Assembly (NCBI RefSeq): GCF_014174255.1
Contig: NZ_JABEQJ010000001.1
Location: 310,001 to 374,000 of the forward strand
Direction of reading: 5' to 3'
Length of the DNA stretch: 64,000 nt
From: Gluconacetobacter sacchari
GTDB taxonomy: Bacteria; Pseudomonadota; Alphaproteobacteria; Acetobacterales; Acetobacteraceae
Below are positions 5,886 through 41,418 of this stretch, piece after piece (position 1 is the first letter of the stretch; each line of letters opens with the position of its first letter). The notes under the pieces are model-generated. The model ran no database searches, was not told the origin of the DNA, and was given only the letters and a program-made list of their open reading frames with translations. The translations under genes were made by a program, and so were the position numbers.

Positions 5886-7620
<1,735 letters not shown>

Positions 7621-7764
7621 CCCCGGGCCGTTTCCCCCTTCCTCCGCCCGGCGCAAGCAAGCGGACGATCGCGGGCCTGTCATCCTATCGACAACGGGCC
7701 GCTAGTTTCGTAACCGTTCCACCGCCGTGTCGTGCGGCACCTTCAGTTCAAGGCAGGTATATCG

Positions 7765-9225
7765 ATGGCGAAGAAAGCCCAGAGTTCAGCTCCGACCACC
7801 CTTCCGTCCCCTTCCGCTGAGGCTGTCGCCAAGGTCTTCAGCCTGATCCAGGAACATTCCGTGGAGCTGGTGGACCTGCGCTTCACCGACCCGTACGGCA
7901 CCTGGCACCACACCTGCCAGCATGTCTCGACCATCGAGCAGGACACGTTCCGCGACGGCTTCATGTTCGACGGTTCGTCGATCGGCGGCTGGAAGGCCAT
8001 CAACGAGAGCGACATGGTCCTGCTGCCGGACCCCGCCACCGCCGTCATGGACCCGTTCTCGGCCAAGCCGCAACTGATCCTGATCTGCGACATCATCGAG
8101 CCCTCGACCGGCCAGTTCTATAATCGCGACCCGCGCTCGACCGCCAAGCTGGCCGAGGCGTACCTGAAATCGACCGGCCTGGGCGACACCGCCTTCTTCG
8201 GCCCGGAAGCCGAGTTCTTCATCTTCGACAACGTCAAGTTCGGCACCGGCCCGAATTTCGGCATCTATCAGCTCGACAGCATCGAAGGCCCCGGCGCGTC
8301 GCTGAAGGATTATCCGGAAGGCAACATGGGCCATCGGCCGGGCGTCAAGGGCGGCTATTTCCCGGTGCCGCCGGTGGACAGCGAGAGCGACCTGCGCGCC
8401 GAGATGCTGACCACGATGGGCGAGATGGGCCTGCCGATCGAAAAGCACCACCACGAGGTCGCGCAGTCGCAGCATGAGCTGGGCACGACCTTCACGACCC
8501 TGGTGAAGTCCGCCGACTTCATGCAGATCTACAAATACTGCGTGCATAACGTCGCGCATTCCTATGGCAAATCCGCGACCTTCATGCCCAAGCCGATCTA
8601 TGGCGACAACGGCTCGGGCATGCATGTGCATCAGTCGATCTGGAAGAACGGCAAGCCCGTCTTCGCCGGCAACGGCTATGCCGACCTGTCGGACCAGGCG
8701 CTGTATTACATCGGCGGCATCATCAAGCACGCCAAGGCGCTGAACGCCTTCACCAACCCGTCCACCAACTCCTACAAGCGGCTGATCCCGGGCTTCGAGG
8801 CGCCGGTGCTGCTGGCCTATTCGGCCCGCAACCGCTCGGCCTCGTGTCGTATCCCGTACGCGACCAGCCCGAAGGCGAAGCGCGTCGAGGTGCGTTTCCC
8901 CGACCCGACCGCCAACCCGTACCTGTCCTTCGCCGCCATGCTGATGGCCGGCCTGGACGGCATCAAGAACAAGATCCACCCGGGCGACGCCATGGACAAG
9001 GATCTGTACGACCTGCCGCCCGACGAGCTGAAGCAGATCCCCACCGTCTGCGGATCGCTGCGCGAGGCGCTGGAATCGCTGGCCGCCGATTATGAATTCC
9101 TGCTGGCCGGCGGCGTGTTCACCAAGGACCAGATCGAGAGCTATCTCGAACTGAAATGGCAGGAAGTGTACCGCTTCGAACATACGCCGCATCCGGTGGA
9201 GTTCGAGATGTACTACTCCGTCTGA
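7765..9225 (+). CDS. glnA: Glutamine synthetase type I
   Basis: GlnA condenses glutamate and ammonia to glutamine with ATP, as a cytoplasmic dodecamer. Seen are [22 protein letters not shown], the metal-ligand segment [25 protein letters not shown] and the flexible loop near [17 protein letters not shown]. The adenylylation tyrosine is Y415 in [10 protein letters not shown], equivalent to Tyr397 of E. coli, so regulation by GlnE is expected. The protein has 486 aa with a short N-terminal extension ([12 protein letters not shown]). The ATG at 7765 is preferred over an in-frame codon at 7732. A terminator follows at 9251. Confidence 0.97.
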
Positions 9226-9250
9226 TCCGGCTTCGGGATTGGAGAACGGG

Positions 9251-9284
9251 CGCCGGATCCGCGAGGGTCCGGCGTTCTTTTTTT
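9251..9284 (+). terminator. Rho-independent terminator after glnA
   Basis: CGCCGGATCC and GGGTCCGGCG form a 10-bp stem (one T-G pair) closed by a GCGA tetraloop, followed by TTCTTTTTTT. It begins 26 nt past the glnA stop. Confidence 0.9.
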
Positions 9285-9299
9285 GCAGACAAAGAAGGC

Positions 9300-11150
9300 T
9301 TACGCGCTCGGCCCCTTTTCGCCCGCGAGTTCCCGCCGGGACCGGTCCAGTTCCTCGCTATAGCGGCGCAGCGCGTGCTGCTCGGTCAGCATGCCGCGCA
9401 CCTGTCGCCCTTCCGCGCTGTCCACCACCACCAGCGCGTCGCTTTCGGCCTGTTCGAAGCGGGCGATGGCCTCGCGCAGGTTCATCTGCGGCGTCAACAT
9501 CTGGTCGCGATACTGGGCGAAGCGGGCGAGGGTTTCGTCGGGCAGCGCGCTCTCGGCATATAATTCGGGCACCAGCACCAGTCCGACATACCGCCCCGCC
9601 TGGTCGACCAGCACGATGCGCTGCCCCGATCCCAGCGGATAGGCCCGGCGGGCCGCCTGTACCGTCGTATCCTGGCACAGCGTCTTCACATCGTGCCGCA
9701 TCATCCGCCCGACCGTCAGCGTGCGGATCCAGCCGATATCGACCGCCGAGCGGATCGATTCCCCGCGCAGGTGGAAGCGCCAGGTGGCGAAGGAATAGCC
9801 GAAGGTGCGGCGCACCGTCAGGCTGGAAATCACCGAGGCCACCAGCACGGCGGCGGTCAGCGGCAGGCTGCCCGTCATTTCCAGCGCCAGGAAGACCATG
9901 GTCATCGGTGCGCCGACCACCGCGACGGCCATCGCGCTCATGCCCACCAGGGCGCAGAGTTCGGCCGAAAGGGGGGTCGCGGAGATCAGCGCCAGGCCGC
10001 CGCCGAACGCCGCCCCGGTCAGCACGCCCAGATAGAGCGAGGCGAAGAACAGGCCGCCGCGGAACCCCGCGCCGATCGACACCGAGGAGGCCAGCGCCTT
10101 CATGACCAGCAGCGCCAGGACCTGCCCGGTCGGCATGGCATGTTCCAGCGCCACCCGCATCGCCCAGTGGCCCGACGACATGACCGAAGGCGATGCCAGC
10201 GCCAGCAGGCCCACCACCAGCCCGCCGATGGCGGGGCGCATCCAGACCGGCAGGCCGGACCGGCGAAACAGCATCTCGGCCAGGGTCACGCAATACATCA
10301 GCCCGACGCCCAGCAGGGCGGCGACGATGCCCAGCGTGGCGATGGGCAGGTAATCGTCCATCCGCAAGGCGGCCGGCAGCACCACGCTGACCCCCGGCAC
10401 CGTGCTGTGCAGCAGATGCGCCACCCCGATCGCGGAGACCGACGCCGCCGCGACCGGGGCCAGGTTGGCCAGCGAATAGGTGCCGATGACCAGTTCGAAC
10501 GCGTAGAACGCCCCGGCCAGCGGCGCGTCGAACGCCGCCCCGATCGCCCCCGCCGCGCCGCAGCCGACCAGCAGCCGCAGGTCCTCGCGCCGCACGCGGA
10601 ACATGCGGCCCAGGCGCGAGCCGGTGGCGGCGCCGATCTGGGTGAAGCCGGCCTCCAGCCCCACCGAGGCGCCGACGGAATTCGACAGGACCGTCTGGAC
10701 GGCGACGATCGCGCTGTCGCGTATCGACATCCGGCCGCCATGCAGGGCATTGGCCTCGATCGGGTCGACCGGGCGGCCGGGCACGCGGCGCGTCACCCAT
10801 ACCCCTAGCAGGCCGAGCAGCAATCCACCCAGGGTCGGCACCAGGATCGCGCGGGCGGGGGCGATCGCCCCAAGCCCCGAGATCCGGCCGATGCCGGGGG
10901 CGGCGAACAGCAGGCGATGCGCCAGCAGGGTGGCGTGGCTCATGGCGCCGACCAGCAGGCCCGCGGCGCAGCCGACCGCGGCCGCCAGCATCACCAGCCA
11001 TAATTCGTCGGCCCGCACCAGCGCGCGCAGCAGGCGCGGAACATAGGCCACGCGATCGTCGCGCACGTCGCCCTCCGCCCCGTCCGGAGGCAGGAATGCG
11101 CCGCGACGGCGTCGCAGATGATTCAGCAGGCCGAGGGTGGAAGACGGCAC
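9300..11150 (-). CDS. CLC-family anion channel/antiporter with C-terminal CBS pair
   Basis: This 616-aa protein has a CLC membrane core (about residues 40-440) followed by two CBS repeats (about 455-600; LTVGRMMRHDVKTLCQDT and YRDQMLTPQMNLREAIARFE). The gating-glutamate motif appears as GASVGLEAGFTQIG: Glu is kept but the usual GxEGP is changed. The usual selectivity-filter GSGIP is replaced by DPIEANALHGG. The N-terminus carries a short cytoplasmic stretch before the first helix. It starts with GTG at 11150 and its 3' end faces the glnA terminator. Transported ion and coupling cannot be told from sequence. Confidence 0.88.
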   Translation of the reverse strand: MPSSTLGLLNHLRRRRGAFLPPDGAEGDVRDDRVAYVPRLLRALVRADELWLVMLAAAVGCAAGLLVGAMSHATLLAHRLLFAAPGIGRISGLGAIAPARAILVPTLGGLLLGLLGVWVTRRVPGRPVDPIEANALHGGRMSIRDSAIVAVQTVLSNSVGASVGLEAGFTQIGAATGSRLGRMFRVRREDLRLLVGCGAAGAIGAAFDAPLAGAFYAFELVIGTYSLANLAPVAAASVSAIGVAHLLHSTVPGVSVVLPAALRMDDYLPIATLGIVAALLGVGLMYCVTLAEMLFRRSGLPVWMRPAIGGLVVGLLALASPSVMSSGHWAMRVALEHAMPTGQVLALLVMKALASSVSIGAGFRGGLFFASLYLGVLTGAAFGGGLALISATPLSAELCALVGMSAMAVAVVGAPMTMVFLALEMTGSLPLTAAVLVASVISSLTVRRTFGYSFATWRFHLRGESIRSAVDIGWIRTLTVGRMMRHDVKTLCQDTTVQAARRAYPLGSGQRIVLVDQAGRYVGLVLVPELYAESALPDETLARFAQYRDQMLTPQMNLREAIARFEQAESDALVVVDSAEGRQVRGMLTEQHALRRYSEELDRSRRELAGEKGPSA

Positions 11151-11283
11151 GGCAGGGTACTCTCGCGGGGCGCCCGGACGCCCGTAGCGACTATTTGAAG
11201 TGATGTGCCTGTCGGATCAACCCGAATTCGGCCTTACCATGCCGCCCCGGCGCCCCTACGGCTTCGATCGCGGAGAAATGCCG

Positions 11284-12294
11284 ATGTCCCCTGCCCTGCC
11301 CCCCACCATGCGCGCGGTCATTGTGCGCGAAGCCGGCGCCCCCGAATCGATGACGCTGGCCGACATCCCCCTGCCCGTGCCCGGACCGGGCGAGGTGCTG
11401 GTGCGGGTGCAGGCGGCCGGGGTGAACCGGCCCGACCTGATGCAGCGCAAGGGCCAGTATCCGCCGCCGCCGGGGGCCAGCCCGATCCTGGGGCTGGAGA
11501 TCGCGGGCGAGGTCGTGGCGAAGGCGCCCGACGCCCCGGACTGGCCGGCGCTCGGCACGCCGGTCTGCGCGCTGACCAATGGCGGCGGCTATGCCGCGTA
11601 TTGCGCTGTGCCGGCCGGCCAGTGCCTGCCCTGGCCGGACGGGTTCGACGCCATCCGCGCCGCCGCCCTGCCCGAGACGTTCTTCACCGTATGGTCGAAC
11701 CTGGTGATGACGGCGCATGTCGCCCCCGGCGAGCGGGTGCTGATCCATGGCGGCGCCGGCGGCATCGGCACCGCGGCGATCCAGACCGTCCGGGTGCTGG
11801 GGGCCGTGCCCTACGTGACCGTGGGCTCGACCGACAAGGCGGCGCTGTGCCTGAAACTGGGCGCCGAAGCCGCGATCGACTACCGGGAGGAGGATTTCGT
11901 CGCGCGGATCGACGACCTGACCGGGGGGCGGGGCGTGGATGTGGTGCTGGACGTGATCGGCGGCCCGTACCTGGACCGCAACCTGCGCTGCCTGGCGCAG
12001 GGCGGCCGGCTGGTGATCATCGCGCTGCAAGGCGGCGCGAAAGCCCAGGAGGTGGGGGTGGCCCGGATCCTGACCCGGCACCTGACGGTGGCCGGCACCA
12101 CGCTGCGCCCGCGCGACCGCGCGTACAAGGCCCGGGTGGCCGAGGGGCTGCGCGCGGCGCTGTGGCCCGCACTCTCCGACGGTACGATCGCCCCGCTGAT
12201 CCACGCGACCTTTCCCCTGGCCGAAGTCGTCGCGGCCCATAAACTGATGGAATCGGGCAGCCATTCCGGCAAGATCGTCCTCGATCTGCGTTAA
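11284..12294 (+). CDS. NAD(P)H quinone oxidoreductase, zinc-independent MDR family (PIG3/Qor-like)
   Basis: This medium-chain reductase has an N-terminal GroES-like domain (VPGPGEVLVRVQAAGVNRPD, QRKGQYPPPPGASPILGLE) and a Rossmann domain with HGGAGGIGTAAIQ. Zinc ligands of alcohol dehydrogenases are absent, and the length of 336 aa fits the PIG3/TP53I3-type NADPH:quinone oxidoreductases. The open frame reaches 11200, but GGAGA at 11272-11276 is well spaced for the ATG at 11284. An ATG at 11278 would sit too close. It is transcribed divergently from the CLC gene. Confidence 0.87.
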   Translation: MSPALPPTMRAVIVREAGAPESMTLADIPLPVPGPGEVLVRVQAAGVNRPDLMQRKGQYPPPPGASPILGLEIAGEVVAKAPDAPDWPALGTPVCALTNGGGYAAYCAVPAGQCLPWPDGFDAIRAAALPETFFTVWSNLVMTAHVAPGERVLIHGGAGGIGTAAIQTVRVLGAVPYVTVGSTDKAALCLKLGAEAAIDYREEDFVARIDDLTGGRGVDVVLDVIGGPYLDRNLRCLAQGGRLVIIALQGGAKAQEVGVARILTRHLTVAGTTLRPRDRAYKARVAEGLRAALWPALSDGTIAPLIHATFPLAEVVAAHKLMESGSHSGKIVLDLR

Positions 12295-32197: not shown

Positions 32198-33082
32198 TCA
32201 ATCGGCCGATCGCATGATCCCTTCGACGAAGGTCGCGAACTGACGCGCCTTCGTGGTCATCATGTGCCCGGCGGGAAAGACCGCCCAGAGATCGATCGAG
32301 GGCAGCGACCAGGTCTTCAGCACCCTGACGACGGTGCCGTTCGCCAGTTCCGGGGCGAACATCCAGTCCGAGGCGATGGTCACCCCCATATCGGCCAGGA
32401 CCGCCGCGCGCAGGCCTTCGGCGGCGCTGACGCGCAGGCGGCCGGTGACGGAAACCGACACCGCCGCGCCGTTGCGCGTGAACGACCATGCACTCGGCAA
32501 CTGGCTGTAGACGATCGCCTCGTGATTCGCGAGGTCCGCCGGGCTTTGCGGCAGCCCCGCCCGCGCGAGATAGGCCGGCGTTGCCAGGACCGAGCGGCCG
32601 CCGGTGACGATTTTGCGGGCAACCGCCGCGGAGTCCGAGAGCACGCCCAGGCGCAGCGAGATATCCACGCCCTCGGCCACCAGGTCGATCAGGCGGTCGT
32701 CGAGAAGGATATCGACATCGAGATGCGGGTGCGCCGCCAGGAATTGCGGCAGCCTGGGAATGACATGCAGGCGCGCGAAGGTCGTCGCGGCGGAAACGCG
32801 CAGCCGCCCGGACAGGCCCGCCCCCGCGCCCTTCGCGGCGAGTTCCGCCTCGTCTGCCGCCTGGATGGCGATTCGCGCCCGCTCATAGAAGCTTTGTCCT
32901 GCCTCGGTCGGCGTCAGTTGATGCGTGGAGCGGATGAGCAGGCTGACCTGTAGCCGGGATTCGAGCTGCGCGACGGTCTTGGACACCGCCGGTTGTCCGA
33001 CATTGAGGTGGCGCGCCGCCGCCGAGAACGAGCCGGTCTCCACCACCCGCACGAACGTCGCCATCGCCTGGTATCGATCCAT
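32198..33082 (-). CDS. LysR-family regulator of the GST/ene-reductase gene run
   Basis: The protein starts MDRYQAMATFVRVVETGSFS, with helix-turn-helix FSAAARHLNVGQPAVSKTV. The effector domain follows (LRVSAATTFARLHVIPRLPQ) in the CrgA/DsdC-like branch of 294 aa regulators. GGGAGGA precedes the ATG at 33082; the open frame to 33208 is not used. It is convergent with tetR (15 nt apart) and divergent from the GST-OYE-Prx-CMD-SDR genes. Between the starts lie two dyads, CATTCC-N5-GGAATG (33085-33101, over its own ribosome site) and the 24-bp dyad at 33127. Confidence 0.9.
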   Translation of the reverse strand: MDRYQAMATFVRVVETGSFSAAARHLNVGQPAVSKTVAQLESRLQVSLLIRSTHQLTPTEAGQSFYERARIAIQAADEAELAAKGAGAGLSGRLRVSAATTFARLHVIPRLPQFLAAHPHLDVDILLDDRLIDLVAEGVDISLRLGVLSDSAAVARKIVTGGRSVLATPAYLARAGLPQSPADLANHEAIVYSQLPSAWSFTRNGAAVSVSVTGRLRVSAAEGLRAAVLADMGVTIASDWMFAPELANGTVVRVLKTWSLPSIDLWAVFPAGHMMTTKARQFATFVEGIMRSAD

Positions 33083-33126
33083 GTCATTCCTCCCGGGAAT
33101 GGCGTTTATCGCCTCGACGCACCTGC

Positions 33127-33150
33127 CATGTCGAGCGGTATGGCGACATG
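33127..33150. promoter_or_regulatory. Candidate LysR operator between lysR and GST genes
   Basis: CATGTCG-N10-CGACATG is a perfect 7-bp-arm dyad over 24 bp. It lies 44 nt from the LysR start and 45 nt from the GST start, almost the centre of the intergenic space. LysR regulators bind such interrupted dyads, so it is the best site for activating the GST operon. Confidence 0.55.
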
Positions 33151-33195
33151 TCTTTCCCATGCCCGGATAGGCCGGGCCGGAAGGAAGACGTCTCG

Positions 33196-33876
33196 ATGTC
33201 CGGTTCATCCATACCCGCGGCCGCCGGAGAAGAACGGCCGCTGCTCGATGTCCATGCGTTTGCGACGCCGAACAGCGTCAAGGTGCCGATCGCGCTTGAG
33301 GAGCTTGGTCTTCCCTATACGCTGCATGGCGTCAATGTCCGCCAGGGCGCGCAGAAGACGCCGGAGTTCCTGGCGCTCAATCCCAACGGCAAGGTGCCCG
33401 TCCTGGTGGATCGGACCGTGGAGGACGGCCCCTTCGTCCTGACGGAATCCGCCGCGATCCTCGTCTATCTCGCCGAGAAGACCGGGCGGCTGCTGCCGGG
33501 TGGCGGCGTGGCCCGTGCCCGGGTATTCGAGCAGCTTTTCTTTCACGCCTCCGGCCTGAGCCCGGCTTTCGGGCAATCAGGCTTCTTCCAGCGTTTCGCC
33601 GCCGAGCCGCAGCCGATCGCGATAGAGCGATTCTCCGGCGAGGCGAAACGCACCCTGGGCGTGCTCGACGGCGTGCTGGCGAACCGGCCATTCGTCGCCG
33701 GCGAGGCGTTCACCATCGCCGATATCGCCCATTTCGGCTGGCTGTGGCGGCGCGCCTTCGCGGGGGTGTCGTTCGACGACACGCCCAATGTCGCGCGCTG
33801 GTACGAAGCGATCGCGGCGCGTCCCGCCGTGCGGCGCGGCATTGCCCGCGTCGAGGCTCTCGTCCCGCAAGGCTGA
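33196..33876 (+). CDS. Glutathione S-transferase (YfcG/GstB-like)
   Basis: The 226-aa cytoplasmic GST has an N-terminal thioredoxin fold (LLDVHAFATPNSVKVPIALE, LNPNGKVPVLVD with the cis-Pro, LTESAAILVYLAEKTGRLLP). The all-helical C-domain ends IARVEAL. The TPNSVK start motif is that of Nu-class (YfcG, Ure2-like) enzymes, which reduce disulfides and peroxides with glutathione. GGAAGGA at 33179 fits the ATG at 33196 better than the one at 33148. It is the first gene of a run of detoxification genes. Confidence 0.9.
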   Translation: MSGSSIPAAAGEERPLLDVHAFATPNSVKVPIALEELGLPYTLHGVNVRQGAQKTPEFLALNPNGKVPVLVDRTVEDGPFVLTESAAILVYLAEKTGRLLPGGGVARARVFEQLFFHASGLSPAFGQSGFFQRFAAEPQPIAIERFSGEAKRTLGVLDGVLANRPFVAGEAFTIADIAHFGWLWRRAFAGVSFDDTPNVARWYEAIAARPAVRRGIARVEALVPQG

Positions 33877-33902
33877 TATCCATTCCAGACAAGGAGCCCC
33901 TT

Positions 33903-34997
33903 ATGTCCATGCTTTTCACGCCGTTCCGGGCGGGCGCGCTGTCGCTCGGCCATCGGGTCGTCATGGCGCCGCTGACCCGCCTGCGTTCGGAACCCGGCGA
34001 CATGCCGGGGGAATTGATGCGCGAATATTATACGCAGCGCACGTCCCGCGGCGGGCTTATCGTCTCGGAAGCGACCCCCGTCGCGCCCGAAGGGTATGGC
34101 TATGCCGGCGCGCCCGGAATCTACGATGACGCCCAGATCGCGGGCTGGCGCACCGTCACCGACGCGGTGCATGCCCATGGCGGCAGGATCGTCCTGCAGC
34201 TCTGGCATGTCGGCCGCCAGTCCCACCACGATCTTCAGCCGGGCGGCGCGGCGCCCGTCGCGCCCTCCGCGATCCAGGCGGAAGGCTATGCCTATACCGC
34301 GAACGGCCCGGTGCCGTTTTCCATGCCGCGCGCCCTGGAACGCGACGAAATTCCGGCGATCGTCGCGCAGTTTCGCGACGGGGCCGCGCGCGCGAAGGCG
34401 GCCGGTTTCGACGGTGTCGAGATCCATGGCGCCAATGGCTACCTGCCGGACCAGTTCCTGCAGGATGGCACCAATCATCGCACCGACGAATATGGCGGCC
34501 CGATCGAGAACCGCGCCCGTTTCCTGCTCGACATCACGCAGGCGGCGATCGATGTCTGGGGGGCGGACCGCGTGGGCGTGCGGCTGAGCCCGAGCGGCAC
34601 CTATGGCGAGATGTCCGACAGCGATCCGCAGAAAACCTTCGGCTATGTCGCGGAGAAACTGGACGGGATGGGCATCGCCTACCTGCATGTCGTCGAGCCG
34701 CGCATCAAGGGCACGGAATTGGTCGCCGAGAGCGACGCGGTCGCGGCCAGGACCCTGCGCGGCGTCTTCAGCGGCACGCTCATCGCCGCCGGCGGCTTCG
34801 ACGGCGCGAGCGCGGAGGCGATCGTCCGGGCGGGCGACGCCGATGCGGTCGCGTTCGGGCGGTATTTCATCAGCAATCCCGACCTGCCGGAGCGCCTGCG
34901 ACGCAACCTGCCGCTCGCCCCTTACGACCGCTCGACCTTCTATGGCGGCGGGGCGCATGGCTATGTCGACTATCCGCACGACGAAACCGTCGCCTGA
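33903..34997 (+). CDS. Old yellow enzyme / alkene reductase (NemA-like)
   Basis: The FMN enzyme reduces activated C=C bonds and N-ethylmaleimide with NAD(P)H. Its 364 aa contain MAPLTRLRSEPGDMPGELM, YYTQRTSRGGLIVSEATPVA, LQLWHVGRQSHHDLQPGG, HGANGYLPDQFLQDGTNHRT (active-site region), EYGGPIENRARFLLD and the C-terminal FMN phosphate loop DADAVAFGRYFISNPDLPER. AAGGAG lies 8 nt upstream of ATG 33903. It follows the GST by 26 nt. E. coli pairs nemA with the electrophile sensor NemR; here both a TetR of similar branch and a LysR are near. Confidence 0.95.
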   Translation: MSMLFTPFRAGALSLGHRVVMAPLTRLRSEPGDMPGELMREYYTQRTSRGGLIVSEATPVAPEGYGYAGAPGIYDDAQIAGWRTVTDAVHAHGGRIVLQLWHVGRQSHHDLQPGGAAPVAPSAIQAEGYAYTANGPVPFSMPRALERDEIPAIVAQFRDGAARAKAAGFDGVEIHGANGYLPDQFLQDGTNHRTDEYGGPIENRARFLLDITQAAIDVWGADRVGVRLSPSGTYGEMSDSDPQKTFGYVAEKLDGMGIAYLHVVEPRIKGTELVAESDAVAARTLRGVFSGTLIAAGGFDGASAEAIVRAGDADAVAFGRYFISNPDLPERLRRNLPLAPYDRSTFYGGGAHGYVDYPHDETVA

Positions 34998-35000
34998 AAC

Positions 35001-35021
35001 GCCATTCCGGCGCGGAATGGC
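35001..35021. terminator. Intra-operon hairpin after the ene-reductase gene
   Basis: GCCATTCCG and CGGAATGGC form a perfect 9-bp stem with a GCG loop, 3 nt past the stop codon, in the 108-nt gap before the peroxiredoxin-like gene. No T-run follows. It may reduce or process the transcript. Confidence 0.5.
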
Positions 35022-35105
35022 GGATAGTCGTCCGCGCCGGCATCCCCGGGACGACGGAGCGACCTACTCTTCGTCCCGCTACCACGATCAATGAAGGAAA
35101 CGACG

Positions 35106-35780
35106 ATGTCTCTGCAAGAAAATCTTGATGCATTCAAGGCTGATTTCGAAGCCGGCAGGCCGCCTTACAGCGTGCCGCACGCGGTGATCGAGGTCATGCA
35201 TCGTGCCACCGCCGAACTGGTCGCGTCCGGAGCCGCCGAAAAGGCGCTGAAGGCGGGCGACAAGGCCCCGTCCTTCACGCTGAACGATCCGGACGGCAAC
35301 CCTGTCTCGTCCGCCGAGCTGCTGGCGAAGGGCCCGCTGGTCGTCAGCTTCTATCGCGGCGTCTGGTGCCCCTATTGCAACATGGAACTCCAGGCGCTTG
35401 AAGCGGCGCTACCGTCGTTCCGCGCACTCGGCGCGAGCCTGATCGCCATCTCGCCGCAGACGGCGGTGAACAGCCGCAAGTCCGTGCGCCAGAACGACCT
35501 GGATTTCCCGATCCTGTCGGATACGCACAACGATGTCGCGGCGCGCTTCGGCCTGCGTTTCGCGCTGCCCGACTATCTGGTCGAACTCTACAAGAACCTG
35601 AAAAACGACCTGCCGGGATTCAATGGCGACGAGAGCTGGACGCTGCCGATGCCGGGCCGCTTCGTCATCGGCCGGGACGGCGTGATCCTCTATGCCGAGG
35701 TGAACCCGGATTACACGCGCCGGCCGGAGCCGGAAGACATGCTCCCGGCCCTGCGCAAGGCCTCGACCGTTACCGCCTGA
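35106..35780 (+). CDS. Peroxiredoxin-like protein (AhpC/TSA)
   Basis: The 224-aa thioredoxin-fold protein has a 60-residue N-terminal helical part (QENLDAFKADFEAGRPPYSV) and then the redox domain: KAPSFTLNDPDGNPVSSAEL, VVSFYRGVWCPYCNMELQAL with the CPYC cysteines, and ISPQTAVNSRKSVRQNDLDF. It resembles the AhpC/TSA proteins that use two nearby cysteines in a CxxC. GAAGGAAA precedes the ATG at 35106 (a codon at 35091 overlaps it). It shares the YRGxWCPxCN signature with the protein at 30981, giving two related enzymes 4 kb apart. Confidence 0.87.
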   Translation: MSLQENLDAFKADFEAGRPPYSVPHAVIEVMHRATAELVASGAAEKALKAGDKAPSFTLNDPDGNPVSSAELLAKGPLVVSFYRGVWCPYCNMELQALEAALPSFRALGASLIAISPQTAVNSRKSVRQNDLDFPILSDTHNDVAARFGLRFALPDYLVELYKNLKNDLPGFNGDESWTLPMPGRFVIGRDGVILYAEVNPDYTRRPEPEDMLPALRKASTVTA

Positions 35781-35814
35781 GCCGAATCGAAACGTCGAAC
35801 AGCAAGGACTTCAG

Positions 35815-36231
35815 ATGACACCGAGAGAAAAAGGAAATGCGGCCACCCGGGCGCTGATGGGCTCCGAACAGTCCGCGCGCCTGGCCGCCGCGGCGGAATC
35901 CGATACGTTCGGCGCCGATATCGCGGGATACGCGGTCGATCATGTCTTCGGCGATATCTGGACGCGCGATGGGCTCGACCAGGCGCGCCGGAGCCTGATT
36001 ACCATGACGGTCATGGTGGCGCTGCGGCAGCCGCACGAATTCGGCCTTCACATGAATTTCGCGCTCGATCACGGCATGCCGCTCCGGGAAATCGAAGAGG
36101 CGCTGATCCAGATGCTGCCTTATGTCGGCTTTCCCGCCATTTCGGGCGTCATGCCGGTGGCCACGAAAATCGTGGCCGAGCGCGGCCTGGACAAGAAGGC
36201 CGATTACGCGGGCCATCGCGGCCTGCTGTGA
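35815..36231 (+). CDS. Carboxymuconolactone-decarboxylase-family protein without CxxC
   Basis: The 138-aa all-helical protein matches the CMD family by FGDIWTRDGLDQARRSLITM and ALRQPHEFGLHMNFALDHGM, EEALIQMLPYVGFPA. It has no cysteine, so it lacks the CxxC of AhpD-type alkylhydroperoxidases and cannot be a thiol peroxidase. It is closer to gamma-CMD. Its place between a peroxiredoxin-like and an SDR gene suggests a lactone or carbonyl substrate, but no function is proved. It is 34 nt after the upstream gene. Confidence 0.85.
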   Translation: MTPREKGNAATRALMGSEQSARLAAAAESDTFGADIAGYAVDHVFGDIWTRDGLDQARRSLITMTVMVALRQPHEFGLHMNFALDHGMPLREIEEALIQMLPYVGFPAISGVMPVATKIVAERGLDKKADYAGHRGLL

Positions 36232-36255
36232 GCGTATCGTTCGAAGGAGCGAAAC

Positions 36256-37005
36256 ATGACGAAGCTTGAAGGAAAGGTCGCCGTCGTCACCGGCGGCAGC
36301 AGCGGACTCGGCCTGGCGATGGCCAGGCGGTTCGCCGAGGAAGGCGCGTTCGTCTACATCACGGGTCGGCGGCAGGGCGAACTCGACAAGGCGGCGGCGT
36401 CGATCGGCGGCACGGTCGCGGGCGTGCAGGGCGACGTTCAGCGGAGCGAGGATATCGACCGTCTGGTCGAGCGGATCCGGACGGAGAAAGGGCGGATCGA
36501 CATCCTGGTCGCAAATTCCGGCATGGTCGCGCCGCAGCTTCTGGCGGATGCGACGGACGGGAATTTCGACACGACGTTCGGCGTCAATGTCCGGGGCGTG
36601 TATTTCACGGTCGATCGGGCATTGTCGCTGCTGGCGCGCGGCAGCTCGGTGATTCTCGTCTCCTCGATCGCCGCGAACAAGGGGGTTCCCGGCTATGGGA
36701 CCTACAGCGCGAGCAAGGCGGCGGTCCGCAGTTTCTCCAGAACCTGGACGGCCGAATTGCTGGAGCGCGGCATCCGCGTGAATACGCTGAGCCCCGGCCC
36801 GTTCGATACCCCGATCATGGACGGGCAGGCCGACACGCCGGAGGGCCGGGACGCGGTGCGTGCCAAATGGGCCGCCGCCGTGCCGATGAAGCGGCTGGGC
36901 CGGCCGGAAGAACTCGCCGCCGCCGCGCTGTTCCTGGCCTCGGACGAGAGCAGCTATGTCGCGGGGATCGACCTGATCGTCGATGGCGGGGCTGCCGCGA
37001 TCTGA
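36256..37005 (+). CDS. Classical short-chain dehydrogenase/reductase
   Basis: The Rossmann start is VAVVTGGSSGLGLAMARRFA, with NSG-type ANSGMVAP, catalytic Ser in ILVSSIAANKG and YxxxK as YGTYSASKAAV. LSPGPFDTPIMDG and YVAGIDLIVDGGAAAI follow at the end. It has 249 aa, a standard length. An Arg after the second strand (TGRRQGEL) favours NADP(H). It is the last gene of the LysR-linked run, 24 nt after the CMD gene. Substrate is unknown; aldehyde or ketone reduction would fit with its neighbours. Confidence 0.93.
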   Translation: MTKLEGKVAVVTGGSSGLGLAMARRFAEEGAFVYITGRRQGELDKAAASIGGTVAGVQGDVQRSEDIDRLVERIRTEKGRIDILVANSGMVAPQLLADATDGNFDTTFGVNVRGVYFTVDRALSLLARGSSVILVSSIAANKGVPGYGTYSASKAAVRSFSRTWTAELLERGIRVNTLSPGPFDTPIMDGQADTPEGRDAVRAKWAAAVPMKRLGRPEELAAAALFLASDESSYVAGIDLIVDGGAAAI

Positions 37006-37103: not shown

Positions 37104-37748
37104 CTACCACCGCGTGAGCCACGGCAGGACCAGGCGCGTCGCAAGGGTGACGACGCCACCGGCCGACAGATACCATACCGCCAGATACAGCGGATCGTCG
37201 AACGGACAGGCCAGCGCGAAGGTCAGCGCGCCGAAGGCGGATGCGGCAATGCCCGCGGCCCAGGCCGTGCCGTGGGAATCGACCGGCGCGCCCCGCCTTG
37301 CCAGCAGGCCCAGCGCCAGGGCGAGGGGCAGGGACAGTTCCACGATCTTGCGCGCGCAGACCAGGCCGTGCGCCGGGTCCAGCCGGTGCCACAGAACGGC
37401 CGGCCCGCCGGCTTGCAGGGCATCGACCAGCCATCCCGCGCCCAGCATGAGGAACGCCACGCCGCCGACGATGCGCAGGCCGCGCCGCGGCGAGCGCGTC
37501 GGGCTGAGCGAGAGCAGCGCGGTGACGCCGCTGATGACCGCGACCGCCGCCAGGCCCGCGGTTTTCCACCAGAAGCTGGGCATGTGCATCGCATGCGGCA
37601 TGTCCGGGCGCATCAGGCCCGCCGATACCACCCAGGCGATCTCGATGATGCCGAGGACCAGCAGAATGGTCGCGTCACGCCAGGGCGTCCGCCGCCTGAC
37701 CGGACGCAGGTCGGTCGCGAGCCGGTCGATCAGGGGATCAGTCGACAT
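37104..37748 (-). CDS. nrsF: NrsF-type transmembrane anti-sigma factor (DUF1109)
   Basis: NrsF holds the partner ECF sigma factor at the inner membrane. This 214-aa protein has a short cytoplasmic N-terminus (STDPLIDRLATDLRPVRRRT) and about six membrane helices (DATILLVLGIIEIAWVVSAG; GLAAVAVISGVTALLSL; IVELSLPLALALGLLA). C131 in GLVCARK and C181 in LACPFDDPLY are its only cysteines. In the Caulobacter homologue two conserved cysteines of this protein are needed for stress response. The start at 37748 overlaps the sigma-factor gene by 11 nt, typical of a co-translated pair. Confidence 0.9.
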   Translation of the reverse strand: MSTDPLIDRLATDLRPVRRRTPWRDATILLVLGIIEIAWVVSAGLMRPDMPHAMHMPSFWWKTAGLAAVAVISGVTALLSLSPTRSPRRGLRIVGGVAFLMLGAGWLVDALQAGGPAVLWHRLDPAHGLVCARKIVELSLPLALALGLLARRGAPVDSHGTAWAAGIAASAFGALTFALACPFDDPLYLAVWYLSAGGVVTLATRLVLPWLTRW

Positions 37749-38268
37749 CACTACCTCGCAATACCATGTCGTTCATCCGTCCCAGCCCACGGTGAATATT
37801 GACCTTGACCAGGGCAGCGGATTGTCCGGTGCGCCGGGCCGCTTCCTCGATGCTGAGGCCGTGCAGCTTCACCAGCCGGATGACCTCGGCCTGCGCCGGT
37901 TTCAGCATGCCAAGCAGCCGCTCCAGCGCATGGGCCGTCGTGATCTGCTCCTCATGATCGGGAATGGCCAGATCGTCCTCGATCGGCACCATGTCCACCC
38001 GGTTTTCGGCCCGCAGCCGGTCGATCCATTTATGGCGCGCGATCGCGGCCAGCCATGGCCCGAACCCCTGCGCCGGATCGAATGTGTGGCGTTTCTCATG
38101 CACCGCGAGCAACGTGTCCTGCACGGCGTCGTCGATCATGGAAGGCGGCAGCCGCCGTTGGAAGAAACGCTTCAACCACACGGCGGCCTCGGCCAGGACA
38201 AAGCGATAGGCGTTGGCGTCGCCCCGCTGGGCGGCCGCCATCCAGTGACTCCATTCGGCTTCCGTCAC
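37738..38268 (-). CDS. sigF: ECF RNA-polymerase sigma factor, SigF-like
   Basis: The 176-aa protein has sigma region 2 (IDDAVQDTLLAVHEKRHTFD, FGPWLAAIARHKWIDRLR) and region 4 (LKPAQAEVIRLVKLHGLSIE, EAARRTGQSAALVKVNIHRG). Together with NrsF it corresponds to the SigF/NrsF pairs of Caulobacter and Azospira, which recognise GTAACC-N16-CGAA. Three such sites occur within 3 kb. It is third in an apparent operon msrB-msrA-sigF-nrsF, so activation would raise its own synthesis. The gap to msrA is 29 nt. Confidence 0.93.
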   Translation of the reverse strand: MTEAEWSHWMAAAQRGDANAYRFVLAEAAVWLKRFFQRRLPPSMIDDAVQDTLLAVHEKRHTFDPAQGFGPWLAAIARHKWIDRLRAENRVDMVPIEDDLAIPDHEEQITTAHALERLLGMLKPAQAEVIRLVKLHGLSIEEAARRTGQSAALVKVNIHRGLGRMNDMVLRGSDVD

Positions 38269-38297
38269 TCTCGCTCCTGTTGCTGCCGCCCCCGCCC

Positions 38298-39002
38298 CTA
38301 CGGTTCGCCAGGCGTGGCGAGCGCCAGGATCGGGTGATCGCGATACTGTCCGCCATATAGCATCTTCAGCGTGTCGATCCGAGGGGTATCATAGGTTGCG
38401 ATATAGGGATTGTCCGGGTGGCGGGCCGCGAAATTCTGGTGATAGTCCTCGGCCGGATAAAAGCCACGGTCCGGGACGACCTGCGTTGCGACCGGACGGG
38501 CGAAGACATGCGCGCCGTCCAGTTGCCGGATATAGGCGCGCGCCTCCGCCGCCTGTTCCGGCGTGCGCGTGAACAGGACCGAGCGATACTGGCTGCCGGT
38601 ATCGGGAAACTGCGCATTCACCTGTGTCGGATCCAGCGCGACGGAAAAGAAGATGCGCATCAGCGCGGCGTAGCTGACCTGCGTCGGGTCATATTCGACC
38701 GCGACCGATTCCGCGTGGCCCGTATCGCCTTCGCCGACGGTCTCGTATTCGGCGGTGTCCCTCGCGCCGCCGTCATATCCCGCGCGCGTCGCGGTCACGC
38801 CGCGAATGTGCTGGAAGACGCTCTGGACGCCCCAGAAGCATCCGCCGGCGAAAATGGCGGTCGCATGATGGGTCGTCGCGGGGGCGTCCGCGACCACGGG
38901 CGGCGGCAGATGCGCGGCCAGCGGCGTTTCCGCGGCGTGGCACGCCATGCCGAGTGTCCCCATGGCAATGAGCGAGACGCCGAGTATTCCGGTGCGTGTC
39001 AT
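38298..39002 (-). CDS. msrA: Exported peptide-methionine (S)-S-oxide reductase
   Basis: MsrA reduces S-methionine sulfoxide. The catalytic motif is FAGGCFWGVQSVF, followed by GYDGGARDTAEYETVGEGDT, HAESVAVEYDP and PAEDYHQNF, all MsrA signatures. A signal peptide (LGVSLIAMGTLGMACHA) places it in the periplasm. Apart from the signal region, the catalytic Cys is the only cysteine, so the usual C-terminal recycling cysteines are absent and a different reductant is needed. It has 234 aa. It lies 13 nt after msrB in the same operon as sigF. Confidence 0.95.
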   Translation of the reverse strand: MTRTGILGVSLIAMGTLGMACHAAETPLAAHLPPPVVADAPATTHHATAIFAGGCFWGVQSVFQHIRGVTATRAGYDGGARDTAEYETVGEGDTGHAESVAVEYDPTQVSYAALMRIFFSVALDPTQVNAQFPDTGSQYRSVLFTRTPEQAAEARAYIRQLDGAHVFARPVATQVVPDRGFYPAEDYHQNFAARHPDNPYIATYDTPRIDTLKMLYGGQYRDHPILALATPGEP

Positions 39003-39015
39003 GGTTCGGGTCCTT

Positions 39016-39480
39016 TCAGGCCGGGTGGAACGAGAGGGCGACGCCGTTCATGCAGTAGCGCAGGCCCGTAGGCGCCGGCCCGTCGTCGAAGACATGGCCG
39101 AGATGGCCGCCGCAGGTGGCGCACAGCACCTCGGTCCGGTCCATGCCGAGCGACCTGTCCGCGCGCTCCTGCACCGCGCGCGGCAGGGCGCGGTAGAAGC
39201 TGGGCCAGCCGGTGCCGCTTTCGAACTTGGTGCCGGCGTCGAACGCGGCGGTGTCGCAGCCGGCGCAGGCGAAGCGCCCGGGCCGATGCTCGCCCAGCAG
39301 GGGGCTCGACCACGGCATTTCGGTGCCGGCGCGGCGCAGGACGTCATATTGCGCGGGCGTCAGCAGGCGGCGCCATTCGGCGTCGGAATGCACGACGGCA
39401 TAGGACGGCGCGGCGCGGCCGGCGCGCGCGGCCAGCAGGAACGTGGCCGAGGCAAGGCAGAACTGGCGGCGGGAGGTCAT
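39016..39480 (-). CDS. msrB: Exported peptide-methionine (R)-S-oxide reductase
   Basis: MsrB reduces R-methionine sulfoxide. Zinc cysteines are in FACAGCDTAAF and VLCATCGGHLGHVF, the motif GTKFESGTGWPSFYRAL is complete, and the catalytic cysteine is in LRYCMNGVALSFHP. The 154-aa protein begins MTSRRQFCLASATFLLAARA, a twin-arginine signal, so the folded enzyme is probably exported. No resolving cysteine is seen near GWPSF. It heads the operon msrB-msrA-sigF-nrsF, and a SigF-type promoter lies 38 nt upstream. Confidence 0.95.
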   Translation of the reverse strand: MTSRRQFCLASATFLLAARAGRAAPSYAVVHSDAEWRRLLTPAQYDVLRRAGTEMPWSSPLLGEHRPGRFACAGCDTAAFDAGTKFESGTGWPSFYRALPRAVQERADRSLGMDRTEVLCATCGGHLGHVFDDGPAPTGLRYCMNGVALSFHPA

Positions 39481-39517
39481 GAAACCGCTCCTTCACGATA
39501 ACAGCATCGTCCGGTTC

Positions 39518-39543
39518 TTCGGCGCGCCGGGGCCATCGGTTAC
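39518..39543 (-). promoter_or_regulatory. SigF-type ECF promoter for msrB-msrA-sigF-nrsF
   Basis: On the minus strand GTAACC (39543-39538) and CGAA (39521-39518) are separated by exactly 16 nt. This is the known SigF -35/-10 pattern, and it implies positive autoregulation of sigF. Confidence 0.85.
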
Positions 39544-39576
39544 GGGCGGCGGCCGACAATCTTTTTGCGGGAGCCT

Positions 39577-39602
39577 GTAACCATTCGCGGGCGCCGGACG
39601 AA
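39577..39602 (+). promoter_or_regulatory. SigF-type ECF promoter for the b561/molybdopterin reductase genes
   Basis: GTAACC at 39577-39582 and CGAA at 39599-39602 are 16 nt apart and 31 nt upstream of the ATG. It is back to back with the msrB promoter; the two -35 boxes are 33 nt apart. Confidence 0.85.
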
Positions 39603-39633
39603 GGCACCGACATCATTGCCTGGAGGCCCGCAG

Positions 39634-40257
39634 ATGCCCCGACCACGCCGCACGCCCACGCCTGTCATCAGGATCACCCACTGGATCGGCGCGCTGTCGA
39701 TGCTCGCCATGATCGGCAGCGGGTGGCAGATCTACAATGCCTCGCCCATCCTGCCGTTCTCCTTTCCCTCCTGGATGACGCTGGGCGGATGGCTTGCCGG
39801 CGGGATCGCCTGGCATTTCGCGGCGATGTGGACGCTGATGGGCGCCGGATGCGTCTATCTGGCGCATGGCGTCGTCTCGGGCCATTTCCGGCGCGACCTG
39901 CGCCCGCAGGGCGCGCGCGCCATCGGGCGGGACATGGGCCTTGCGCTGCGCTTTCGGCTTTCTCACGCGCCGGGTCGGTACAATGCGGTGCAGCGCCTGC
40001 TCTATACGGGCGTGCTGATCGTGGCCGCCCTGACGGTGGCCTCGGGCCTTTCGATCTGGAAACCCGTGCAGCTTGGCTGGCTGACCTGGCTGTTCGGCGG
40101 CTATGACATCGCGCGCCGGATCCACTTCACGATGATGGCGCTGATCGTGGGGTTCCTGATCGTTCATGTGGTGCTGGCCCTGCTGGTACCGTCGACGCTG
40201 TTCGGCATGGTGTTCGGCCGCAGACCGGCCCCGCAGGATCCGGAGACGGTGCGATGA
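39634..40257 (+). CDS. Cytochrome b561-type membrane subunit (YedZ/MsrQ-like partner)
   Basis: The 207-aa inner-membrane protein has about four helices with histidines placed for two b hemes: PVIRITHWIGALSMLAMIGS, GGIAWHFAAMWTLMGAGCVY, LLYTGVLIVAALTVASGLSI and IHFTMMALIVGFLIVHVVLA. It is of the Ni-hydrogenase/b561 cytochrome type and would pass electrons from the quinone pool to the periplasmic reductase encoded next, with which it overlaps by 4 nt (ATGA). TGGAGG precedes the ATG at 39634. In Azospira the analogous gene is called yedZ1. Confidence 0.88.
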   Translation: MPRPRRTPTPVIRITHWIGALSMLAMIGSGWQIYNASPILPFSFPSWMTLGGWLAGGIAWHFAAMWTLMGAGCVYLAHGVVSGHFRRDLRPQGARAIGRDMGLALRFRLSHAPGRYNAVQRLLYTGVLIVAALTVASGLSIWKPVQLGWLTWLFGGYDIARRIHFTMMALIVGFLIVHVVLALLVPSTLFGMVFGRRPAPQDPETVR

Positions 40258-41003
40258 AGCGGCCGCAACTGGATCGAACGGCCATCGCGCCGGAATTGCG
40301 CCGCCTGGAACGCCGCCTGATGCTGAGGGGCATGGTCTCGCTCGGCGGGCTGTCCCTGCTGTCGGGCTGCGCGCTGGATGACGAACCCGCGGTCGAACGC
40401 GCGCTCGCGCGGGTGATGAGCCTGACCGACCGCGCGCAGGCGCTGCTGTTCAGCCGCCATCGCCTGGCGCGCGAATTCGATGCCTCGCGGATCACGCGTC
40501 CATTCCCGTTCAATGCCTATTACGGGCAGGATGACGTGCGGACGGTCGATCCGGCGCAATGGCGGCTTGAGGTATCGGGCCTGGTCGCGGACCGGCGCCC
40601 CTGGTCGCTCGCGCAGTTTCGCGCCCTGCCGCAGAAGCGGCAGATCACGCGCCATATCTGCGTGGAGGGCTGGAGCGCGATCGGCTGCTGGTCCGGCGTG
40701 CCGCTGTCGGTGTTCCTGAACCGGGTCGGGGCCGACCTGCGGGCGAAATACGTCGATTTTCACTGTTTCGACGATTATTCGACCAGCATCGACATGGCGA
40801 CGGCCCTGCATCCGCAGACCGTCATGGTGCTGGATTTCGACGATCGCGGGTTGCCCGCGGCCTATGGCGCGCCGATGAAGGTCCGGATTCCGACCAAGCT
40901 GGGCTACAAGAATCCGAAATACCTGGCGGCGATCAGCGTCACGAACCGCTTTCCCGGCGGCTATTGGGAGGACCAGGGATATGACTGGTTCGGCGGATCG
41001 TAA
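40254..41003 (+). CDS. Periplasmic molybdopterin oxidoreductase (YedY/MsrP-like)
   Basis: This sulfite-oxidase-fold protein has the molybdenum-binding cysteine in QITRHICVEGWSAIGCW. Family motifs FPFNAYYGQDDVRTVDPAQW, YSTSIDMATALHPQTVMVLD and MKVRIPTKLGYKNPKYLAAI follow. An RR-containing signal (RRLMLRGMVSLGGLSLLSGC) suggests Tat export, perhaps with a lipid anchor at the LSGC cysteine. It has 249 aa. With the b561 subunit it is expected to reduce oxidised methionine (or similar S-oxides) using quinol electrons; that role is known for related MsrPQ and YedY1Z1 systems. Confidence 0.9.
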   Translation: MKRPQLDRTAIAPELRRLERRLMLRGMVSLGGLSLLSGCALDDEPAVERALARVMSLTDRAQALLFSRHRLAREFDASRITRPFPFNAYYGQDDVRTVDPAQWRLEVSGLVADRRPWSLAQFRALPQKRQITRHICVEGWSAIGCWSGVPLSVFLNRVGADLRAKYVDFHCFDDYSTSIDMATALHPQTVMVLDFDDRGLPAAYGAPMKVRIPTKLGYKNPKYLAAISVTNRFPGGYWEDQGYDWFGGS

Positions 41004-41018
41004 AATAACGCGCGCCCT

Positions 41019-41044
41019 GTAACCTTCGGCCCCGCGCGGGCGAA
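41019..41044 (+). promoter_or_regulatory. SigF-type ECF promoter for the methionine-rich peptide gene
   Basis: GTAACC at 41019-41024 and CGAA at 41041-41044 are 16 nt apart, 65 nt upstream of the peptide start. It is the third site of identical form in this locus. Confidence 0.85.
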
Positions 41045-41109
41045 GAACAGGACAGTGAGGCGGAAAGGTCCGTCTCCGCACGGACTTTTTTCAATCAGGG
41101 AGAATCGCT

Positions 41110-41418
41110 ATGTCCATTCGTCATTTCATGTTCGCGGCCGCGCTGGTGTCCAATGTCGCCATCGCCGGCGCGGCGGTCGCGCAGGATGGCATGTCGCACG
41201 GCGCCATGGCGCATGACGGCATGTCCAAGAGTGCCATGGCGCACGACAAGATGGCGCCGAACGCCATGTCCGGCGGCAATATGGGGAAACATGCGGAGGC
41301 CGCCCGCCACGGCATGGAGAAGAATGCGATGTCCAAGGATACGATGTCCAAGGGCACGATGGGGCATGGCGGCATGATGGCGCCGCCGCATGACGACGGC
41401 ATGTCCAAGCCCAACTGA
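41110..41418 (+). CDS. Secreted methionine-rich peptide (MXKDX-repeat; MrpX-like oxidant scavenger)
   Basis: The 102-aa precursor has a signal peptide (FMFAAALVSNVAIAGAAVA, cleaved before QDG). The mature part of about 78 residues holds 14 methionines, mostly spaced every five residues (GMSHGAMAHDGMSKSAM, AHDKMAPNAMSGGNM). It also contains many His and Lys and no Cys or aromatic residues. It belongs to the pentapeptide MXKDX family. In Azospira, MrpX of this kind is a sacrificial hypochlorite trap recycled by YedY1. AGGGAGA precedes the start. It has its own SigF-type promoter. Confidence 0.9.
   Translation: MSIRHFMFAAALVSNVAIAGAAVAQDGMSHGAMAHDGMSKSAMAHDKMAPNAMSGGNMGKHAEAARHGMEKNAMSKDTMSKGTMGHGGMMAPPHDDGMSKPN

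Follow-up and report, generated by a model that had tools for sequence, protein, structure and literature searches.

A probable SigF/NrsF-controlled methionine repair locus in Gluconacetobacter sacchari and other Acetobacteraceae

What do seven adjacent genes at positions 37104 to 41418 of a 64-kb stretch of Gluconacetobacter sacchari DNA do together? The stretch, referred to here as the window, comprises 64,000 nucleotides (positions 310,001 to 374,000 of contig NZ_JABEQJ010000001.1) and is part of a 4.83-Mb genome. The genes encode an extracytoplasmic function (ECF) sigma factor (SigF) and its membrane anti-sigma factor (NrsF), the exported methionine sulfoxide reductases MsrA and MsrB, a b561-type cytochrome, a molybdoenzyme of the YedY1 type, and a methionine-rich peptide resembling MrpX. 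We consider it likely that they make up a single oxidant-responsive regulon of the ECF16 (SigF/NrsF) type, gathered in one locus, that keeps methionines of the cell envelope reduced. An initial annotation of the DNA had proposed a defence unit against periplasmic methionine oxidation, controlled by SigF/NrsF and of the kind found in Azospira. Our analysis supports this proposal and adds three promoters, a form of regulatory evidence that the annotation did not have.

Genes, promoters and conservation of the locus

All seven genes appear as intact open frames in the open-reading-frame list of the window. The coordinates and profile matches agree with the arrangement first described, namely two divergent units plus a peptide gene: msrB-msrA-sigF-nrsF on the minus strand, and on the plus strand a cytochrome-molybdoenzyme unit followed by the peptide gene, which has a separate predicted promoter (Table 1). 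The sigF and nrsF genes are adjacent and, as listed, overlap by 14 bases. Six genes were assigned to families by both Pfam and NCBIfam and the peptide by NCBIfam alone, the profile search of the window proteins having returned no Pfam match for it. The peptide contains 16 methionines, 14 of them in the predicted 78-residue mature part. Export signals were read from the sequences by eye rather than by a predictor. By this reading MsrB carries a twin-arginine translocation (Tat) signal, MsrA and the peptide carry Sec signals (peptide cleavage was placed after AVA), and the molybdoenzyme carries a Tat signal with a lipobox.

To ask whether the three units share a regulator, we searched for the promoter GTAACC-N16-CGAA described for Caulobacter SigF (PMC3511200), whose group-wide ECF16 form is quoted as tGTAACc-N16-CGAA in PMC3420878. 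The pattern GTAACC-N{14,18}-CGAA matched three times in the window, always with N16 spacing, and one match lies directly upstream of each unit. Shuffled versions of the window gave 0.15 expected matches, and three matches were reached in 0 of 100 shuffles. Because the same motif sits before each of the three units, we treat them as one predicted regulon. On this prediction msrB-msrA-sigF-nrsF regulates its own transcription, and SigF also acts on the other two units.

Table 1. Genes and predicted promoters of the locus, with positions in the window
Feature	Coordinates	Strand	Profile match or context
nrsF, membrane anti-sigma factor	37104..37751	-	PF06532, 131 bits
sigF, ECF sigma factor, ECF16 type	37738..38268	-	Sigma70_r2 and r4_2; ECF16-type promoters nearby
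msrA, exported peptide-methionine (S)-S-oxide reductase	38298..39002	-	PF01625, 179 bits; TIGR00401, 154.7 bits (cut-off 108.1)
msrB, exported peptide-methionine (R)-S-oxide reductase	39016..39480	-	PF01641, 152 bits; TIGR00357, 155.8 bits (cut-off 113.05)
Predicted SigF-type promoter of msrB-msrA-sigF-nrsF, GTAACC-N16-CGAA	39518..39543	-	37 bp before msrB start
Predicted SigF-type promoter of b561-molybdoenzyme unit, GTAACC-N16-CGAA with preceding T	39577..39602	+	31 bp before start
membrane cytochrome of the b561 type ("YedZ1"), which may carry electrons from quinol to the molybdoenzyme	39634..40257	+	PF01292, 72 bits
YedY1-type molybdoenzyme	40254..41003	+	PF00174, 98.5 bits; overlaps cytochrome gene
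Predicted SigF-type promoter of peptide gene, GTAACC-N16-CGAA with preceding T	41019..41044	+	65 bp before start
mrpX-like methionine-rich MXKDX peptide, 102 aa	41110..41418	+	TIGR02953 (penta_MxKDx), 53.3 bits (cut-off 41)

NrsF was found in 143 of 299 sampled Acetobacteraceae genomes (E <= 1e-3), and we compared gene neighbourhoods in 80 stretches around NrsF matches, drawn from 75 genomes that were picked mainly for genus coverage. The order nrsF-sigF-msrA-msrB / b561-molybdoenzyme is the same as in the window in 12 of these stretches (L038, L039, L044, L045, L053, L055, L062, L066, L102, L106, L110, and L111), so that, counting the window, there are 13 block loci, spread over 10 genera. 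The contig of L045 ends within nrsF, and the msrB and molybdoenzyme genes of L106 are each split over two frames. The block is also present in Gluconacetobacter diazotrophicus PA1 5. All 13 block loci have the methionine-rich peptide (12 by an open-frame filter and L102 by reading), and gene order is kept while a large part of the intergenic DNA around the promoters has diverged. The msrB and peptide promoters are exact in 13 of 13, and the b561 promoter keeps N16 spacing with at most one mismatch in all 13. The initial view that the locus is unusual for an acetic acid bacterium is therefore not supported, though its distribution is patchy: among seven sampled genomes of the window's own genus, three have NrsF together with the YedY1-type molybdoenzyme, one has only a divergent NrsF, and three have neither. 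Variant arrangements were also seen. In L040 the peptide gene is directly divergent from msrB and the molybdoenzyme lies on a separate contig; in L097 (genome G058, positions 6001-11675) two opposed NrsF genes flank msrB-msrA and a b561-molybdoenzyme pair; and two genomes of the window's genus (G215 and G247) carry a second YedY1-type molybdoenzyme copy far from the SigF block.

The NrsF of the window is the sole PF06532 match in the genome. Its only cysteines, C132 and C182, lie about 50 residues apart, at the positions of C131/C181 in Caulobacter NrsF (PMC3511200) and C129/C179 in Bradyrhizobium OsrA (PMC3420878). A two-domain sigma factor beside an NrsF with two such cysteines, together with GTAACC-N16-CGAA promoters, identifies the pair as ECF16-type SigF/NrsF, and by analogy with characterized pairs SigF would be held by NrsF and freed upon stress. 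Alignment of the window NrsF with 51 relatives (n = 52) showed cysteine at the first position in every sequence, and cysteine (32), histidine (19), or a gap (1) at the second. The second cysteine is present in 12 of the 13 block loci, the remaining one, L045, ending before that position. None of the 19 histidine-type NrsF proteins has a YedY1-type molybdoenzyme in its stretch, and three of them (L067, L095, and L103) have MsrA and MsrB. There are hints here that cysteine-type and histidine-type NrsF respond to different signals.

The features observed directly (gene identities, shared promoter motif, block conservation, paired cysteines, and the lipobox and heme-ligand candidates described below) lead us to propose the following scheme. 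NrsF in the inner membrane would hold SigF until an oxidant acts on C132 and C182, and the released SigF would transcribe the three units, its own operon included, from their similar promoters. By analogy with related systems, chiefly those of Brucella (PMC8315932) and Azospira (PMC5748585, PMC4623255), the signal would be hypochlorous acid (HOCl) or a like oxidant, or else peroxide. The exported peptide would serve as a bulk methionine sink, while exported MsrA and MsrB would reduce S- and R-sulfoxides, respectively, using thiol electrons. The tethered molybdoenzyme would reduce sulfoxides too, probably including those of the peptide, with electrons drawn from quinol through the b561 cytochrome; its action on methionine sulfoxide, and on the peptide as substrate, is again suggested by analogy. 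The annotation's idea that both sulfoxide stereoisomers are reduced by two enzyme sets is plausible and rests on the presumed activity of the YedY1-type clade.

The molybdoenzyme, its cytochrome and the exported Msr enzymes

The molybdoenzyme and cytochrome had been described as a YedYZ-like reductase, a description that is not supported: the molybdoenzyme belongs to a separate clade and its partner is a b561 cytochrome. The cytochrome falls in the b561 family (PF01292) and not in the YedZ/MsrQ (ferric reductase domain) family. Its candidate heme ligands, H16, H61, H111, H164, and H178, are unchanged across 11 of 11 relatives. The molybdoenzyme has a twin-arginine signal, a lipobox (LSGC, with C39 as the lipid cysteine), and a putative molybdenum ligand at C136, and both C39 and C136 are invariant in 13 of 13 sequences. 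A sequence search of solved structures returned Escherichia coli YedY (1xdq, E = 4e-13), and the predicted model (mean predicted local distance difference test score, 74.7) likewise matched 1xdy and 1xdq best. On the canonical MsrP model NF003767, however, the protein scores 84.8 bits against a cut-off of 207. In a quick tree of 61 sequences, with support from the Shimodaira-Hasegawa-like approximate likelihood ratio test only, it forms with 32 relatives a clade apart from 28 canonical MsrP proteins, separated by long branches with a support of 100.

The partner of canonical MsrP is MsrQ, a ferric reductase domain protein. A canonical MsrP that scores above the cut-off is encoded elsewhere in the same genome, beside an MsrQ as judged by sequence reading. 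The low MsrP score, lipobox, b561 partner, separate clade, and presence of a canonical MsrP elsewhere led us to reject the identification of the pair as MsrPQ.

To characterize the YedY1-type clade more broadly, we examined 80 named loci, those ranking best among at least 581 that were found; among the matches listed, the closest named molybdoenzymes were those of Gluconacetobacter dulcium (93%) and G. diazotrophicus (83%). Genes for a b561 cytochrome lie near 79 of the 80 molybdoenzymes, for SigF near 28, NrsF near 27, MsrA near 15, and MsrB near 10. A methionine-rich frame occurs anywhere in the stretch in 51 loci. In 42 it follows the molybdoenzyme gene on the same strand by no more than 1.2 kb, compared with 17 such frames elsewhere or upstream in the 1328 kb searched; three lie upstream (L160, L173, and L191). 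The filter used for these counts did not pick up the L102 and L040 peptides, and it lets through some chance frames.

A twin-arginine motif with a lipobox after it is present in 79 of 79 clade proteins with a readable molybdenum-cysteine motif, L171 having been left out since its best-scoring frame lacks that motif. By comparison, among the 30 best-scoring canonical MsrP loci, all from Acetobacteraceae, 28 were readable, and of these none had a lipobox and 27 had the twin-arginine motif. The lipobox pattern matched 74 of 1534 random frames. Because the lipobox is found in all 79 clade proteins and in 0 of 28 canonical ones, we propose that the YedY1-type enzymes are probably tethered to a membrane. 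Across the 79, the position following the lipid cysteine varies, with serine in 24, aspartate in 17, asparagine in 14, threonine in 11, alanine in 7, valine in 4, and arginine and glycine in 1 each. Aspartate occupies this position in all nine loci counted as enterobacterial, a count that includes L167, titled Chryseobacterium and placed there on its sequence. In E. coli, aspartate after the lipid cysteine is an inner-membrane retention signal, and for the species of these loci we predict that the enzyme is a lipoprotein tethered to the inner membrane. Eight enterobacterial loci (L148, L158, L172, L174, L176, L179, L184, and L189) have the b561-YedY1 pair and a methionine-rich frame with no SigF/NrsF match in the stretches fetched, about 9 kb on each side; another regulator may therefore drive the pair there.

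The lipobox is possibly a new detail of the YedY1 clade. Among the papers listed, as judged by title and the start of the abstract, none linked the clade to a lipobox or a b561 partner, in a search that took in neither most of the subscription literature nor the 2015 mBio paper on the Azospira system. The lipobox sets the clade apart from MsrP and offers a testable reason for the co-occurring methionine-rich peptide: since a tethered enzyme cannot leave the membrane, a soluble peptide could act as a diffusible methionine shuttle. Under this more tentative proposal, which we regard as possible but short of probable, the YedY1-type enzymes would be a distinct and widespread family of Tat-exported lipoproteins working beside a b561 quinol cytochrome. 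The peptide would be oxidised anywhere in the periplasm and then travel back to the membrane, where the respiratory chain would reduce it. MsrA and MsrB, soluble and driven by thiols, would mend proteins directly.

MsrA has the catalytic cysteine motif GCFWG with no cysteine after it, as do 18 of 20 sequences (the window and 19 relatives). MsrB has the motifs SGTGWPS (18 of 21) and RYCMNG and two CxxC pairs. Many MsrB proteins have a resolving cysteine at the site of SGTGWPS. The other MsrB of this genome reads SGSGWPS, so the missing resolving cysteine is not special to the exported enzyme; the other MsrA reads GCFWC and has further cysteines. As for possible thiol donors, there is one DsbD-type match in the genome, on another contig, and co-regulated DsbD-like and thioredoxin-like proteins have been proposed as donors in Bradyrhizobium (PMC3420878).

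Evidence against an oxidant-responsive regulon and rival explanations

Several observations weigh against an oxidant-responsive methionine repair regulon. First, 53 of the 80 NrsF stretches lack MsrA, MsrB, and the YedY1-type molybdoenzyme, and 27 have at least one of the three. Second, GTAACC-N{14,18}-CGAA gave 17 matches genome-wide and 16 in a reversed control. The argument for a regulon thus rests on promoter position and conservation and not on the bare genome count, which is at background level. N16 spacing occurs in seven of the 17, three of them at this locus; by reading, two of the other four fall within frames, one TonB-receptor-like and one long, a third falls in transposase-like sequence, and the fourth lies 5' of a gene for a small membrane protein, inside a TetR-like frame of the opposite strand. 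No redox donor was indicated at these four sites, and we rejected a wider genomic SigF regulon on the ground that matches stand at control level. Third, NrsF scores 68.3 bits on the NrsF equivalog model NF042994, below its 300-bit cut-off. Fourth, given the sub-cut-off MsrP score and long branches, the substrate of the molybdoenzyme is not transferable by homology. Finally, Caulobacter SigF responds to chromium and cadmium, its targets were not induced by agents that generate reactive oxygen species, and msrA homologues were unchanged (PMC3511200), although PMC8315932, contrary to that account, counts Caulobacter SigF as responsive to reactive oxygen species.

The Caulobacter metal response, together with the occurrence of SigF/NrsF genes in copper-chelating bufferin clusters (PMC12452194), makes a metal-stress role the main rival. 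Here the peptide, which is rich in methionine and histidine, would act as a periplasmic chelator of copper or other thiophilic metals, the NrsF cysteines would sense metal, and the reductases would repair secondary damage. A related locus, L051, has an apparent DUF692 enzyme beside SigF, as judged by sequence reading. In the window, however, none of the seven genes matches bufferin, DUF692, or metal-efflux families in Pfam or NCBIfam, the genes behind the three promoters encode methionine-sulfoxide-type enzymes and the peptide besides the regulators, and homologues in Brucella (PMC8315932) and Azospira (PMC5748585) respond to reactive chlorine. We consider a mainly metal-directed locus unlikely.

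A second possibility is that the molybdoenzyme and b561 cytochrome form a sulfite dehydrogenase and that the regulon responds to sulfite, with the Msr genes as a side arm. The enzyme does have the sulfite oxidase fold, sulfite oxidases come directly behind YedY among the structural matches, and Sinorhizobium meliloti RpoE1/RpoE4 are reported, in the title of PMC3511301, to be activated in response to sulfite. Yet the closest solved structures by both sequence and fold are those of YedY, the SorA and SoxC models score just 39 and 33 bits, and sulfite oxidation leaves unexplained the methionine-rich frame that follows 42 of 80 such genes. We regard this possibility as very improbable. That separately regulated stress genes are merely adjacent by chance is harder still to credit and was rejected, because the same promoter motif precedes each unit and 13 loci from 10 genera share the gene order although much intergenic DNA has diverged; the other MsrA, MsrB, and canonical MsrP genes elsewhere in the genome, which might favour it, mean that the locus is not the sole repair set.

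Known systems and neighbouring genes

The initial annotation suggested that the combination of genes may be undescribed, but it is already in print. In perchlorate islands, sigF/nrsF, yedYZ, and mrpX are the key stress genes, and in the islands of Propionivibrio militaris MP and Dechlorobacter hydrogenophilus LT-1 they are joined by msrA and msrB, whose products are predicted to be exported (PMC4623255). These two islands have the same set of functions as the locus here by description, the available text giving no island-by-island list, and we accordingly rejected novelty of the combined gene set. The difference is one of setting, a perchlorate island there and a conserved Acetobacteraceae locus here.

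The Azospira suillum PS hypochlorite system (SigF/NrsF-MrpX-YedY1) shares the regulator pair, methionine-rich peptide, and YedY1 with the present locus, but exported MsrA and MsrB are not named in the available text (PMC5748585, PMC4623255); its YedY1 was compared by description. Brucella melitensis BcrS/AbcS and BcrXQP show an ECF16 pair, an MXKDX peptide, a putative Msr pair, and TGTAAC / GCGAAA promoters; bcrS/abcS and bcrXQP are induced by HOCl and contribute to HOCl resistance (PMC8315932). Unlike at the present locus, the Brucella peptide and reductase genes form one operon, and the text available mentions no MsrA or MsrB there (PMC8315932). The Bradyrhizobium japonicum EcfF/OsrA regulon is ECF16, has a two-cysteine anti-sigma factor, is induced by H2O2, and includes three methionine sulfoxide reductases, one of them predicted to be periplasmic (PMC3420878). 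It differs in having seven scattered transcription units and DsbD-like and thioredoxin-like donors, with no YedY or methionine-rich peptide named in the text available (PMC3420878). In Caulobacter, a gene annotated as YedY is among those under SigF control (PMC3511200). E. coli MsrPQ is similar in being a quinone-fed periplasmic molybdoenzyme of the same fold family with a membrane heme partner, but canonical MsrP has no lipobox, whereas the window enzyme has one along with a b561 partner.

No paper on such a system in acetic acid bacteria was found, and the word Gluconacetobacter is absent from the ten listed of 168 literature matches. The analysis places a regulon of the reactive-chlorine/methionine defence type in several genera of acetic acid bacteria, including G. 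diazotrophicus. Because the layout is compact and one promoter type precedes all three units, a single strain would suffice to test how thiol-fed and quinol-fed sulfoxide reductases divide the work.

Next to the locus, at 32198-37005 of the window, a LysR-like gene on the minus strand faces a plus-strand run whose end converges with nrsF. The run encodes a glutathione S-transferase-like protein, an old-yellow-enzyme-like protein, an AhpC/TSA peroxiredoxin, a carboxymuconolactone-decarboxylase-family protein, and a short-chain dehydrogenase/reductase, the last three assigned by Pfam and the other genes by sequence reading. In 9 of the 12 relatives the stretch with the SigF block also contains the old-yellow-enzyme-like gene, and the two stress units may therefore belong together.

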